A stretch of DNA of 47,455 nucleotides from positions 1 to 47,455 of the forward strand of contig JAKAUM010000006.1 in assembly GCA_021827685.1 (NCBI GenBank), read 5' to 3'. Source of the DNA: a bacterium (lineage in GTDB: Bacteria > Patescibacteriota > Minisyncoccia > UBA6257 > 2-01-FULL-56-20). This document shows, one piece after another, positions 32,738 to 39,928 of the stretch. Numbering within the stretch: position 1 is the first letter of the stretch; each line of letters begins with the position of its first letter. The notes beneath the pieces were generated by a model. The model was not told where the DNA came from. It made no database searches and was given only the letters and a program-made list of their open reading frames with translations. The position numbers and the translations under genes were made by a program.

Positions 32738-32781
32738 GCCGGCTGTTGCGCGGCCCGCGCGGGCCGTGTAAAATATTCCGC

Positions 32782-33597
32782 ATGCCGGCCGGTACGGAAA
32801 AGATTATCGAAGTAAAAAACCTCACGAAGCGCTTCGGCGACTTCGTGGCCGTGGACGGCATCTCGTTCGAGGTGAAAAAAGGCGAAATATTCGCATTCCT
32901 CGGCCCGAACGGAGCCGGAAAATCCACGACGATCAAGATGCTCACGACGCTTTTGCGCCCGACGAGCGGTTCCGTTTCGCTCGACGGCCACGATCCCGCG
33001 CGCGATCCTTCCGCGGCCCGCCGCGCCTTCGGCATCGTATTCCAGGACCCTTCGCTCGACGACGAATTGACCGCCTGGGAGAATATGGAGTTTCACGGCG
33101 TCCTCTACGGCGTGCCTAAAAAATTGCGCCGCGGGCGGATAGAGCAGCTTTTGAAATTCGTCGAACTTTGGGACCGGCGCGACAGTTTAGTCAAGGAGTT
33201 TTCCGGCGGGATGAAGCGGCGGCTCGAGATCGCGCGCGGACTCCTCCATCATCCGAAGGTGATTTTTCTCGACGAGCCGACGCTGGGCCTCGATCCGCAG
33301 ACCAGGAACGGCATGTGGAACTACCTCCGCGAGCTGAATCGGACGGAAGGGATTACGGTGTTCTTCACGACCCACTATATGGAGGAGGCCGACCGCGCGG
33401 CCGAGCGCATCGCGGTCATCGACCATGGCAAGATCGTGGCGTCCGGCTCGGCGGCGGAGCTCAAGGCGAGAACGAAGAAAGAATCGCTGGAAGACGCCTT
33501 CCTTGAGCTTACCGGAAAGACGATCCGCGATGAGGATGCGAGCGCCATGGATCATTTGAGAAATCGCGCGAAAATGTGGCGCAGAGGGGGGAGATAG
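32782..33597 (+). CDS. ABC transporter ATP-binding protein (DrrA-like)
   Basis: GPNGAGKSTTIKMLTTLLRPTSGS; FSGGMKRRLEIARGLLHHPKVIFLDEPTLGLDPQTR. Confidence 0.96.
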   Translation: MPAGTEKIIEVKNLTKRFGDFVAVDGISFEVKKGEIFAFLGPNGAGKSTTIKMLTTLLRPTSGSVSLDGHDPARDPSAARRAFGIVFQDPSLDDELTAWENMEFHGVLYGVPKKLRRGRIEQLLKFVELWDRRDSLVKEFSGGMKRRLEIARGLLHHPKVIFLDEPTLGLDPQTRNGMWNYLRELNRTEGITVFFTTHYMEEADRAAERIAVIDHGKIVASGSAAELKARTKKESLEDAFLELTGKTIRDEDASAMDHLRNRAKMWRRGGR

Positions 33598-33604
33598 GCA
33601 CGAT

Positions 33605-34351
33605 ATGAAAACTATTTACATCATGTGGCTTCGGCAGATCAAGCGCTACCTGCGTTCGCGTTCGCGCATCGTGGGTTCGCTCGGCCAGCCGCTGCTTTTC
33701 CTTTTGGCGCTCGGCTACGGACTCGGCTCGACGTTCAAGGCGGCGGGCGAGGGAAACTATTTTACCTTCCTCGCGCCGGGCATCATCGGCATGAGCATTA
33801 TTTTCACCGCCATCTTTTCCGGCATTGAGCTCATCTGGGACCGGCAATTCGGATTCCTGAAGGAAACCATGGTGGCGCCCGTGGGACGCATGAACATCAT
33901 GATCGGGCGGACGCTTGGCGGCGCCACCGTGGCGACGATCCAGGGGCTCATCGTATTTTTTGTCACGCTGATCTTCGGGTTCCGCCCGACGAATTGGGTG
34001 CTCTTGCCCGTCCTTTTCCTTTGTATGCTGTTGGTCGCGCTTCTCTTCACCGCGCTCGGTACGGCGGTCGCATCCACCCTGGAGGATATGCAGGGGTTCC
34101 AGCTCATCATGAATTTCCTCGTGATGCCGCTCTTTTTCCTTTCGGGGGCGCTCTTTCCGATTACGGGCCTGCCGCCCGCGCTCACGGCGCTCGTCAAAAT
34201 AGATCCGCTTTCTTACGGGATTGATTCTTTTAGATTCCTTCTCCTCGGGAGAACCGTGTTCGGGCTTGGTTTAGACCTTATTGTTCTTATCTTGTTTACC
34301 GCCGCCTGCCTTTTTATGGGGAACTATCTTTTCTCGAAAATCGAGGCATAA
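33605..34351 (+). CDS. ABC-2 type permease (DrrB-like)
   Basis: LRQIKRYLRSRSRIVGSLGQPLLFLLALGYGLGS...FLVMPLFFLSGALFPITGLPPALTALVKIDPLSYGID. Confidence 0.92.
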   Translation: MKTIYIMWLRQIKRYLRSRSRIVGSLGQPLLFLLALGYGLGSTFKAAGEGNYFTFLAPGIIGMSIIFTAIFSGIELIWDRQFGFLKETMVAPVGRMNIMIGRTLGGATVATIQGLIVFFVTLIFGFRPTNWVLLPVLFLCMLLVALLFTALGTAVASTLEDMQGFQLIMNFLVMPLFFLSGALFPITGLPPALTALVKIDPLSYGIDSFRFLLLGRTVFGLGLDLIVLILFTAACLFMGNYLFSKIEA

Positions 34352-34439
34352 CGGGGTTCCTCGCGGTATTTTTCCACAGGCCATCCAGAGTATATCCACT
34401 TTATTAGGGATTTAATGCTGTTTTTATACATTTCCGGTC

Positions 34440-34468
34440 TTGACGGGCGATTTGGTCGTGGCTATCCT
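34440..34468 (+). promoter_or_regulatory. putative promoter of the ncRNA
   Basis: TTGACG (34440-34445) - 17 bp - TATCCT (34463-34468). Confidence 0.5.
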
Positions 34469-34474
34469 TGAAAC

Positions 34475-34853
34475 TAGTCCAAACGAAAGAAAGGAGATTG
34501 TACGGGAGGGGGTGTCTTCCTGCACGGAAACAAATTCATCGTTTCCATGCAGGGAGGCACTCAAAACGGAGGGCTGTCCGTTGGCTGCTTGACCAGTGGG
34601 CGCCCTCCCCGCGTTCGGAGTTCGGCCTGAAGGCCGCGGCCTATGGGCCGGAGCGGCTCCGAGAGCGGGCGCGCGAATCCCATTCGCGCGCGTTCGCCCT
34701 TCCGTATCGCAACTCGAGAGAGCGGAGAGGAATAACGCGCAAGACGTCGGCATTTGACCTCTCTGCCGCCGTGCGCATTTCCGGCGAATATGCCGGAATG
34801 CTTCTCCGCTCAATCGAGGTTTCACGAGGGAACGCAATGCGTTCCCTCTTTTT
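34475..34853 (+). ncRNA. candidate uncharacterised structured non-coding RNA (~380 nt)
   Basis: No plausible CDS; at least seven strong hairpins (one 21-bp helix with GU pairs), upstream -35/-10, terminator at the 3' end. Confidence 0.6.
34826..34853 (+). terminator. rho-independent terminator of the ncRNA
   Basis: GAGGGAACGC-AAT-GCGTTCCCTC-TTTTT. Confidence 0.85.
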
Positions 34854-34871
34854 GTTCTCGCATCCGCATGC

Positions 34872-34901
34872 AAAAACGCCTCCCGTAGGGGAGGCGTTTT
34901 T
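34872..34901. terminator. bidirectional rho-independent terminator
   Basis: AAAAACGCCTCCC-GTAG-GGGAGGCGTTTTT; 13-bp stem with A/T flanks. Confidence 0.9.
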
Positions 34902-34937
34902 GAAAAGCAGATTGGCCCCGACGGCCAGGCGTTCTGC

Positions 34938-35918
34938 TCAGTAACCGCTCGACGATGCCGACGTCGAGGCCGACGTTGACGCGGAAGCCGAGCTTGACGC
35001 GTTCACATTGGCCTGCGCCGCATTGCCGTTTCCGCCAAGCTTGATGAGCGCCACGACGATCGTGCGCGCATCGTGCCGTGCCTCATCGAGGTCATGCTGG
35101 GCCGCGACGATTTTCGCGCGCGCACCTTGCAGGTCGCTGATGCCGGCATGGAACGCGGCGGTGGACGTCGCTTCCGAGGATCGGATGGAAAGCGCTTCGC
35201 TTATCGCCGCCTGCGCCGAAGAACTTGCCGCCGCGATTTTCGCGTTCATGTCCGCGAGCGCGGTCACGGAGGCGCCCATCGACGTGCTGGATGCTTCCGC
35301 CGCGGAAATCCGGGCTTGAAGCTTGACGGCGAACTGTGAAAGGAGTCCGCCGATCCGGTTGATGCGCGCGGCCGCCCGCACGATCACGGCCTGCGGGTGG
35401 AGGAGCGCGAACGCATGATACGTATCGAGGATGGACCGGATGTCCGCCCTGAGGGACGAAGAAGCGTTCGCCGCCGCGTCGCCGCCGATCCGCGCCTGGA
35501 GGTCCGTAAGCGCCGAGATCCGCGCCTGCATGCTCGAGAGGAGCTCAGCTTTTACGTTTTGCGGAAGATGGATCGCGTTGCTGAGGCGCGTTTCGAGATC
35601 CGTAAGCGCCGAAAGCCGGCGGGCCACTTCCTCATCCGCGTGTTTTTTCGCGCGCGCGATGCGCGCCGCAAGGGCGGCGCTTACGCGGAATTGAACCCGG
35701 CCCGGAATGCCCGTTGCATTCGGGCCTGCGGGGCCTTGCGCATTCGCGCCGATGTTCGCGCCGCCGCCGGCATTCGCGCCGGCGCCCGCCGAGGCGTCTG
35801 CGCTGAGGCCGATGCCGGCTCCCGGACCCTGGCGGGCCGCAAGTACCGGCATTGCGCTTCCGCCGGCGATCGCCGCTATCGAAGAAACCGCGACAAGCAC
35901 TTTTTTCATGGTATTCAT
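34938..35918 (-). CDS. secreted Ala-rich coiled-coil protein
   Basis: Signal peptide MNTMKKVLVAVSSIAAIAGGSAMPVLAA; internal repeats RLSALTDLETRL / RISALTDLQARI; Ser/Ala/Thr tail. Confidence 0.75.
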   Translation of the reverse strand: MNTMKKVLVAVSSIAAIAGGSAMPVLAARQGPGAGIGLSADASAGAGANAGGGANIGANAQGPAGPNATGIPGRVQFRVSAALAARIARAKKHADEEVARRLSALTDLETRLSNAIHLPQNVKAELLSSMQARISALTDLQARIGGDAAANASSSLRADIRSILDTYHAFALLHPQAVIVRAAARINRIGGLLSQFAVKLQARISAAEASSTSMGASVTALADMNAKIAAASSSAQAAISEALSIRSSEATSTAAFHAGISDLQGARAKIVAAQHDLDEARHDARTIVVALIKLGGNGNAAQANVNASSSASASTSASTSASSSGY

Positions 35919-37268: not shown

Positions 37269-38432
37269 CTACTGATATTGGATATAGCTTGGCTGGGGGG
37301 AGAGCCGCAGGACTTCCTCCGGCGTCATGAGATGGCCTCCGATCACCGAATCGTTCTTATAAAACAGCTTGAAGCCGGTGAATTGGACCGGCTGGCCCGC
37401 GATCCAATACCGATACGTATTGAGTTTTCTCGCGGGCGAGCCGAAGCCATCCATATCCATTACGATCTGCACTTCCGGCAGGGGCTTTATCGCGCGATAG
37501 TTCGTGACCATTGCCTGCGTGAATCGGTGGACGACGAGGATTTTCGGCGGCAGGCGGTTTTCGTCAACGAGCTTTGCGAGAAACTGCGCGGCGAAATTGA
37601 TGTCGGAAGCATCAAGCGTCCCGATCACCGTGCCGGGCCGTTCGCCGTTGTGCATCGCGAATTCGGGATCCAGGGAGAGCTCCACGTTCGGCAGCTTTAA
37701 ATACGGCGCGAGGAGCGGCACCTCCGTTTCAACGTTCGAAAGCCCTACCTGGACGTCAAGGAACACGAGTCCGTTGATTCCATCCGCCAGGGAGATCGCT
37801 TTTTCTATCTGGCTCGGCGGCATGCGCAGCCGGTATTTGCCGTCGGGCCCGGCCGAGGCCTGCGCCGCAACCGCGATATAGTCGAGGGCGGGGACGACCG
37901 GCGTCGAGGGGTCTGCCGCCGCCCACATGGCGGTGGTCGAAGCGAGGCGCGCGAGCATTTCATCGGGCGGATACTCGCCGAGGATGCCCATCTGGGTGGA
38001 ATAGAAATTGCCGTAATAGGCGACGATGCGCTTGAAGGGGAGAATGGCGCCCGCATCCGGAATCGCGGCTTCCCATACCGGCCAGAGCGGTACGGGACAC
38101 GGCGGGAGGATCGGCGTCTTGCGTAAGGACGTTTTGGTCGTCGTTGCGGGGATGAAGGAGCCCGCGGGCGTCCCTGCCGTATCCGTCGCGAGCGCGGAGG
38201 AAGAGGCCGCGGGCGCGCAGTCGCGCTGAGGCGGAAGATTGGCAATCGAAAGAAGCTTCGCGTCATAAGCGGCAACATTCACGGATGCGGGAACGGCTGG
38301 GTTCGCCGCGCCGGAAGAAAGCGGGTCCCCGGCGATTGAAAGGCTGCGGGGATATCTTCCGCCGGCGACGATCGCCGTGCCGACGATGGCGGCTCCTGCG
38401 GCGAACACTATGACCCTGGCTTTCTTTTTCAC
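37269..38432 (-). CDS. secreted protein of unknown function, possible TIM-barrel glycosidase-like fold
   Basis: GTG start at 38432 (TATAAT 6 nt upstream); signal anchor KKKARVIVFAAGAAIVGTAIVAGG; alternating strands RIVAYYGNF, VVPALDYIAV, GLVFLDVQVG, NVELSLDPEF, KILVVHRFT, VQIVMDMDGFG. Confidence 0.65.
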   Translation of the reverse strand: MKKKARVIVFAAGAAIVGTAIVAGGRYPRSLSIAGDPLSSGAANPAVPASVNVAAYDAKLLSIANLPPQRDCAPAASSSALATDTAGTPAGSFIPATTTKTSLRKTPILPPCPVPLWPVWEAAIPDAGAILPFKRIVAYYGNFYSTQMGILGEYPPDEMLARLASTTAMWAAADPSTPVVPALDYIAVAAQASAGPDGKYRLRMPPSQIEKAISLADGINGLVFLDVQVGLSNVETEVPLLAPYLKLPNVELSLDPEFAMHNGERPGTVIGTLDASDINFAAQFLAKLVDENRLPPKILVVHRFTQAMVTNYRAIKPLPEVQIVMDMDGFGSPARKLNTYRYWIAGQPVQFTGFKLFYKNDSVIGGHLMTPEEVLRLSPQPSYIQYQ

Positions 38433-38571
38433 GCCACCATTATACGGTTTTTTTTTCCGTTCGGCATCTTTTTTAAGATGCGCCGCGGGGCGCACTCCCG
38501 CCTCGAAACCGTTTCTCGGCCGTGGTAGAATGCGGGAACGTAACAGTTCGTCCGTTCACGCGTATTTTTCT

Positions 38572-39138
38572 ATGGACTTTCATATTCTAGGCCGGCATGA
38601 CGAGCTCACGGCGCTCGCGGTCCGGATGAAAAAGGGGGACCGCAGGGCCGCCGAAAAGCTTTATAACGAACTCATGCCCAAAGCGTACGGGTTCTTTTTC
38701 GCGCGCACGGGCGAGCGGGAGACGGCGCAGGACCTCTCGCAGGACGTTTTCCTCCGCCTTGCGGAGAAAGTGGGGAGCTTCGACGAATCGCGCGGGCGGT
38801 TCGCCGTATGGTTCTGGCAGATGGCGCGCAATCTCCTCGTGGACCACTATCGCGCGAAAAAAGAAAGGCCGTTTTCGTCCATGGAAGAATCATCAGTTGA
38901 ATCTCTTGCGGTCGAGGAGCTTCCCGACATGGATGACCGCCTCCGGTATCGGCAGGTGCGGGAGTTCGTGAAGCTTATGGACGGAGAAGAGCGCGAGCTC
39001 TTTGAATTGCGCTACATTGCGGAACTTCCGTACCGCGAGATCGCGGAGCTCCTCGGGAAAACCGAGGGCGCCCTCAGGATCGCCACGCTCAGGATAAAAA
39101 AGAAAATCAAGCGCGCATTCAAGCATGAAGAAATTTAA
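38572..39138 (+). CDS. RNA polymerase ECF-type sigma factor
   Basis: LSQDVFLRLAEKVGSFDESRGRFAVWFWQMARNLLVDHYRAKK (region 2); LPYREIAELLGKTEGALRIATLRIKKKIKRAF (region 4). Confidence 0.92.
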   Translation: MDFHILGRHDELTALAVRMKKGDRRAAEKLYNELMPKAYGFFFARTGERETAQDLSQDVFLRLAEKVGSFDESRGRFAVWFWQMARNLLVDHYRAKKERPFSSMEESSVESLAVEELPDMDDRLRYRQVREFVKLMDGEERELFELRYIAELPYREIAELLGKTEGALRIATLRIKKKIKRAFKHEEI

Positions 39139-39928
39139 AATCCACCCGGCGGCGGAATTCAAGGATGAGGCAAGGCGCAATTTCCTTGCGGCGTTCGATG
39201 CGCGTTATCCTGCGGCGCCCGCTCGTCCGACATGGTTCGCATTCGCGGTGCGGGGATTTGCGGCGGCGGCGGCGATCGCGGCGATCAGCGCCGGCGGCGC
39301 TACCGTGTACGCGGATGCCGCGAACGTGCCCGCATGGAGCCCGCTTTATCCCTTTAAGCGGTTCGACGAGAATGTCCGGCTTGCGGTTGCCCCGACGGGG
39401 GAGCGCGCGGCGCTCGAGGCGTCGTTTGCCGCGCGGCGGGTGGCCGAGCTCCAAGCCCTCGCCGCGCGGCACCCGGAGAATCATATGGTCGCGTCGCTTT
39501 CGGATGATGCCAGGGCGGAAATCGGCGCCTCAATAAAAGATACCGAAAAAGCCGGGCTCCGGGGCGGACGGCTTTCCTTCGTATGCCGCCAGGTTCTCTC
39601 GACGCTTGTCGCTTCATCGGCCGCCATGGAGAGCGAATTGCGCGACAATGCCGCGGTACTCGGCCTTTTTACTCAGCACTGCGAGGCGTCGGCGGCAGGC
39701 CCAATATCATCTTCGACTCCGGCCGCCTATCCGGCTGCGCCGCCCTCTCCGGCAGCCAAGCCGCATAAAGAACGCGGGAGCGGAGATCAATCCGCGGGAA
39801 CAAGCGGCGTCTCCGCATTGAAGATTCAAATCCGCGACTTCCTGAAGCGCGACCTGGGCGGCGATTCACACGCTTCTTCGACGGATCATCGCCCCCAAGG
39901 CCTTCAGAAGAGGATGGGATCGACCTAG
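39125..39928 (+). CDS. DUF5667-like membrane protein, possible anti-sigma factor
   Basis: Overlaps the sigma gene; one TM; SPLYPFKRFDENVRLAVAPTGERAALEASFAARRVAELQAL. Confidence 0.75.
   Translation: MKKFKIHPAAEFKDEARRNFLAAFDARYPAAPARPTWFAFAVRGFAAAAAIAAISAGGATVYADAANVPAWSPLYPFKRFDENVRLAVAPTGERAALEASFAARRVAELQALAARHPENHMVASLSDDARAEIGASIKDTEKAGLRGGRLSFVCRQVLSTLVASSAAMESELRDNAAVLGLFTQHCEASAAGPISSSTPAAYPAAPPSPAAKPHKERGSGDQSAGTSGVSALKIQIRDFLKRDLGGDSHASSTDHRPQGLQKRMGST

Follow-up and report, generated by a model that had tools for sequence, protein, structure and literature searches.

A highly structured, single-copy stretch behind an ABC-exporter operon as a candidate RNA in a 567-kb bacterial genome assembly

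Some bacterial operons are followed by structured 3' UTRs, or by small RNAs derived from them, which end in the operon terminator. REP-, BIME-, REPIN- and MITE-like elements (PMC3733652, PMC3116915) are intergenic and palindromic, lie behind genes and are rich in hairpins on both strands. The large RNAs OLE, ROOL and GOLLD (PMC12286853), and likewise the raiA motif, are highly structured and non-coding, and they are defined by covariation across many genomes. The stretch described here (positions 34440-34901 of a window of 47,455 nucleotides, the whole piece of DNA analysed) has a predicted two-domain, multi-branched fold followed by a terminator, no coding pattern and no relatives in the collections searched. 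It resembles the structured 3' UTRs in lying behind an operon and ending in a terminator, but it is much longer than is usual for these and is not conserved behind orthologous permeases. With the large RNAs it has in common its size, its structure and its non-coding nature, as well as the fact that no function is assigned to either; it differs from them in having neither homologues nor an Rfam match. In general look it comes close to the REP-, BIME- and MITE-like elements and to a dispersed 147-nt element in a genome from a sister genus (G006). However, it is longer (~350 nt), consists of two closed domains and is present once, so that it is not a repeat in the strict sense. A crude motif scan of the assembly and of the sampled part of G006 gave no candidate for an associated REP-type (Y1) transposase.

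The assembly to which the window belongs as contig C11 (G000) comes from an uncultured bacterium, comprises 13 contigs, is ~90% complete and has Parcubacteria/Patescibacteria MAGs as its closest relatives in public records; G000 was the sole member of its own genus among the genomes compared. The structured part lies ~120 nt 3' of the stop codon of an ABC-2 type permease gene, on the same strand, and faces a convergent gene with homologues in seven other family genomes (Table 1). Elsewhere in the window (38377-39928) an ECF-type sigma factor gene is followed by a gene for a DUF5667 protein, possibly a sigma/anti-sigma pair.

Table 1. Features of the stretch and its neighbourhood, and copies of the 147-nt element in G006. 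Positions refer to the window unless a locus is named; the helices listed have a pair probability >= 0.9.
Feature	Position	Strand	Remarks
ATPase gene of ABC exporter	32746-33597	+	precedes permease gene
ABC-2 type permease gene	33605-34351	+	Pfam PF01061, E 3.9e-33; directly upstream of stretch
Promoter-like site	34440-34468	+	TTGACG-17-TATCCT; 9/12 consensus matches
Leader	34475-34499	+	mostly unpaired in MFE fold, purine-rich (TAGTCCAAACGAAAGAAAGGAGATT)
Domain 1	34500-34707	+	11-bp closing helix 34500-510/34697-707, four hairpins inside; pair probabilities 0.92-1.0
Domain 1 hairpins	34511-34561, 34568-34608, 34609-34668, 34669-34691	+	predicted fold
Domain 1 helices	34500-510/34697-707, 34511-524/34548-561, 34526-531/34541-546, 34568-574/34602-608, 34576-584/34593-601, 34614-621/34656-663, 34622-629/34644-651, 34669-678/34682-691	+	
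Domain 2	34713-34818	+	16-bp closing helix 34713-730/34801-818 with 2x2 internal loop; pair probabilities 0.94-1.0
Domain 2 interior	34737-34776, 34779-34798	+	irregular hairpin; TTCCGGC[GAATAT]GCCGGAA
Domain 2 helices	34713-717/34814-818, 34720-730/34801-811, 34779-785/34792-798	+	
Terminator helix	34826-835/34839-848	+	
Intrinsic terminator	34826-34853	+	GAGGGAACGC-AAT-GCGTTCCCTC + TTTTT; 10-bp stem, T tract
Two-way terminator-like palindrome	34871-34902		CAAAAACGCCTCCC-GTAG-GGGAGGCGTTTTTG; perfect 14-nt inverted repeat
Convergent gene, secreted-type protein	34938-35918	-	coding pattern; no Pfam domain
147-nt element copies in G006	L166:2472-2618, L166:17403-17549 (= L066:6857-7003), L184:16389-16537, L173:6210-6356		

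Folding of 34466-34855 gave a minimum free energy (MFE) of -215.5 kcal/mol, compared with -149.9 +/- 6.1 kcal/mol for 100 dinucleotide shuffles (z = -10.7), and the part from the putative start to the terminator (34475-34852) reached -211.5 kcal/mol (z = -11.6, 40 dinucleotide shuffles). When the 567-kb genome was scanned on both strands in 6262 windows of 360 nt, using dinucleotide-corrected energy, the segment 34561-34920 (plus strand) ranked first for structure. A sequence-only reading, which had given sequence and coordinates just as we found them, had called the stretch highly structured; a z-score of about -11 and the most structured 360-nt window of the genome bear this out. The predicted fold has a well-defined ensemble, with two closed domains followed by the terminator hairpin. 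Against shuffled flanks, the helix closing domain 2 was highly significant (p < 0.0005), and it was also recovered independently as inverted repeat I1; the helix closing domain 1 was only marginal (p = 0.04). An outer pairing of TGAAAC with GTTTCA, also suggested by folding, was not supported: it was not significant against shuffled flanks (p = 0.25), and the position of its 5' strand would precede the start that the promoter-like site implies. Most of the helices that had been paired by hand in the sequence-only reading reached a pair probability of at least 0.9. The exceptions were GCGGAGAGG/CCTCTCTGC (34722-730/34758-766), whose probability is 0.0, its 5' strand being engaged in the 16-bp helix that closes domain 2 (absent from the earlier list), and two adjacent CGGCC hairpins, which form a minor alternative to the single long hairpin preferred in the ensemble.

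These features might be those of a stand-alone gene for a non-coding RNA of ~375 nt, running from the promoter-like site to the terminator, confined to the genus and acting in trans as a scaffold or regulator. The compact two-domain fold between these signals in one orientation, the strength of the domain 2 closing helix and the better folding of the plus strand (-211.5 versus -189.2, with 14 versus 6 G-U pairs by raw count) are consistent with such a gene. The wobble bias was also considered as proof of selection at the RNA level and dropped, as the balanced count (8 G-U versus 5 A-C, p = 0.29) is not significant. With a promoter of moderate quality and homologues lacking throughout the family and beyond (see below), we regard a stand-alone gene as a serious rival, though on the whole an unlikely one.

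The fold score itself also needs to be read with care. In the same scan, in which the best window of the stretch scored -6.8, the known RNAs of G000 scored -2.1 (tmRNA), -2.9 (RNase P RNA), -2.9 (16S), -4.0 (23S) and -1.2 (group I intron). Moreover, 81% of the predicted pairs of the stretch can form on both strands, compared with 28% for tmRNA, 28% for the 16S 5' domain, 44% for the group I intron, 61% for RNase P RNA and an average of 28% for random windows, whereas the hairpin clusters of G006 reach 82-87%. Near-perfect palindromes thus make up the stretch to a greater degree than they do the real RNAs of this genome. A second orphan, hairpin-rich intergenic region (C9:19717-20262, L146; 546 nt) had z-scores of -9.3 and -8.9 on its two strands. 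It adjoins a tRNA-Val gene and is followed by a terminator-like hairpin; its first part matched no Rfam family, it had no convincing relatives, and it was rejected as kin of the stretch since no similarity beyond chance was seen.

Of the 80 permease loci compared (837 kb in all), none but that of G006 (L066/L006) attained the fold score of the stretch. Scores in G006 are equally extreme, including directly 3' of the orthologous permease gene, and 12 of 1295 windows in its sample (~130 kb) fell below z = -5, compared with 4 of 5653 in G000. At least four copies of the 147-nt element, 97-98% identical and mostly at gene ends, occur in these ~130 kb. Each starts with TTTTATCACTCTCC, and the element has a closing helix around three hairpins with a fourth hairpin behind; one copy immediately follows the ABC permease orthologue. 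G006 has a second hairpin-rich repeat family beside tRNA genes (L173:1879-2025, L166:19256-19374 and L184:7350-7800), which includes inverted copies of a tRNA T-arm-like sequence. As the G006 repeats show, multi-branched clusters of hairpins that are closed by a helix and score this extremely can, in this family, be dispersed elements of the DNA. If the stretch is a hairpin element, it serves as a caution: scores as extreme as z = -9 arise in dispersed DNA repeats of the family and the true RNAs of the genome score much lower, for which reason fold stability alone is unfit for calling new RNA classes here.

The parallel with G006 in architecture and position makes an origin from a palindromic element between genes, of the broad type scattered through that genome, the most economical one. 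Our preferred reading, put forward tentatively, is that the stretch, which occurs once and is specific to its lineage, is a group of near-perfect hairpins occupying the space between the ABC-exporter operon and the convergent gene, probably present in RNA as a structured 3' extension and/or a short independent transcript. In its favour are the flat codon G+C, the strongest fold in the genome, the expected read-through, the single copy without homologue and a both-strand pairing like that of the G006 clusters and unlike that of known RNAs. On the other hand, the stretch occurs only once in G000, has no sequence in common with the repeats of G006 and shows no convincing target-site duplication, and its domain 2 closing helix, promoter-like site and terminator could equally be those of a dedicated RNA gene. 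A direct repeat, AATCGAGG, at 34339 and 34812 was considered as the flank of an insertion and discarded, as about one such pair is estimated by chance in 661 bases.

With regard to homologues, blastn against 100 relatives, phages and plasmids detected none, and exact 19-20-mers of the stretch had no match in IMG/VR. A covariance model (R1), built from one single sequence and covering only the core, found nothing real in the 100 relatives, 245 genomes of the order, 387 of the class and the 80 permease-bearing loci. Its weak matches (12-21 bits) lay in DNA with many hairpins, frequently on both strands (L066), and part of the stretch's own minus strand scored 26.5 bits, which renders such matches meaningless. 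The 38 genomes of the family (24 genera) contained no homologue, nor did the ~90% complete assembly contain a second copy. Next to homologues of the convergent gene only ordinary terminators were seen, and behind permease orthologues other genes follow, with no common RNA.

A conserved class would be recognised by helix-supporting covariation among homologues, and with no homologue found a new RNA class is not established. The earlier proposal that the stretch is an independent RNA gene and represents a new class did not gain support: no homologue exists in the genomes searched, the fold score is atypical of the real RNAs of G000, and the same type of multi-branched cluster is a dispersed DNA repeat in G006. 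A new class is thus unproven, while the structure is real and unusual and the stretch is a candidate RNA. As G000 alone represented its genus in the set, absence elsewhere is weak evidence against a dedicated RNA. Even so, it is doubtful that the stretch encodes a genus-restricted, independently transcribed ncRNA of ~375 nt, with a two-domain fold unrelated to known families, in a strongly reduced genome without SRP and, seemingly, without a Shine-Dalgarno system. Were it a dedicated RNA, a genome of ~0.6 Mb would devote 375 nt to an undescribed RNA.

The stretch is probably transcribed, as judged from its signals and setting. The promoter described earlier as its own is present as a site, for which the evidence from sequence is moderate (shuffles contained 0.3 such sites per 700 bp, both strands), and the terminator at 34826-34853 proved to be a good intrinsic one. 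The palindrome downstream of it probably also serves the convergent gene. From the end of the permease gene up to 34826 no convincing intrinsic terminator was seen, and read-through of the exporter operon is therefore expected. This arrangement, with the stretch on the same strand close behind the permease gene and a terminator at its end, would also suit a functional structured 3' UTR of the operon, selected for mRNA stability or as the source of a 3'-UTR-derived small RNA. However, among the 16 nearest permease orthologues of the family, 15 lack a structure comparable to this one downstream and the 16th, that of G006, is followed by an unrelated dispersed repeat, which makes a selected 3' UTR improbable in our view. 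According to the preferred reading of a lineage-specific hairpin cluster, the exporter mRNA would run through the stretch as a structured 3' extension, the weak promoter may add a shorter transcript, and RNA polymerase would stop at 34826-34853. In the RNA, the main effect of the compact helices would be to block 3'-5' exonucleases and to keep transcription from running on into the convergent gene. The expected result is a 3' end that is stable and a termination that is efficient ahead of that gene. There is no indication of a sequence-specific function.

Long open frames are present on both strands (34468-34944, and 34424-34873 antisense), so that a protein-coding gene also had to be considered. 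G+C by codon position is flat in both (0.59/0.56/0.62 and 0.58/0.61/0.55, respectively), whereas the neighbouring genes (about 0.6/0.4/0.75) show the usual dip at the second position and rise at the third. In addition, a Pfam search of the long ORFs in the stretch gave no match, the plus-strand frame traverses two terminators, and chance ORFs of this length are common in the GC-rich window. A coding role is thus extremely improbable, in line with the earlier view that the plus-strand ORF is unlike a protein. The leader contains AGAAAGGAG at 34488, for which a Shine-Dalgarno role was rejected: its six genome-wide copies are close to chance, and the 16S rRNA has no anti-Shine-Dalgarno sequence. 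The 16S gene (C5:78629-80168, minus; L043, L044) ends ...GUGGAUCAAUUAAACUAUUUG, without CCUCC, and SD-like 4-mers before 261 long ORFs (28, versus 34 in a control stretch) were not enriched. Judged by these sequences, SD-guided initiation appears to have been lost in G000; a literature search found no paper on such a loss in Parcubacteria.

Finally, we compared the stretch with known RNAs. None of 4227 Rfam families reached threshold in the window, OLE, ROOL, GOLLD, HEARO and raiA-type large RNAs did not match the stretch, and relaxed thresholds gave chance matches only, mostly on terminators. A diverged housekeeping RNA (RNase P, tmRNA, SRP or 6S RNA) could be suspected since Rfam finds neither SRP RNA (RF00169) nor 6S RNA in the rest of G000. 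Yet RNase P RNA (RF00010) is already present at C5:85160-85562 (83.4 bits, below the Rfam cut-off, E 2e-26) and tmRNA (RF00023) at C1:1989-2300, with ARAGORN finding no tmRNA in the window. SRP RNA and 6S RNA gave no match in the stretch at gathering or relaxed threshold, and conserved core nucleotides are absent. SRP RNA is missing by Rfam from all 38 family genomes as well, and in these and G000 the Ffh/FtsY-type SRP54 domain gave sub-domain matches only (~30-55 residues). As the absence of SRP in Parcubacteria has already been published (PMC4508563), a hidden SRP RNA is not expected. We consider a housekeeping RNA highly improbable; the sequence-only reading, too, could match the stretch to none of the four. 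Elsewhere in G000, a group I intron (RF00028, 72 bits) was found at C5:74927-75230 minus (L043:14927-15230), apparently within a tRNA gene (exon edge ...CTCCCTGTGG), with a second group I match in the 23S gene on C8. Two LOOT RNAs (RF03000) lie above the Rfam threshold at C1:5186-5301 and C8:4657-4777.
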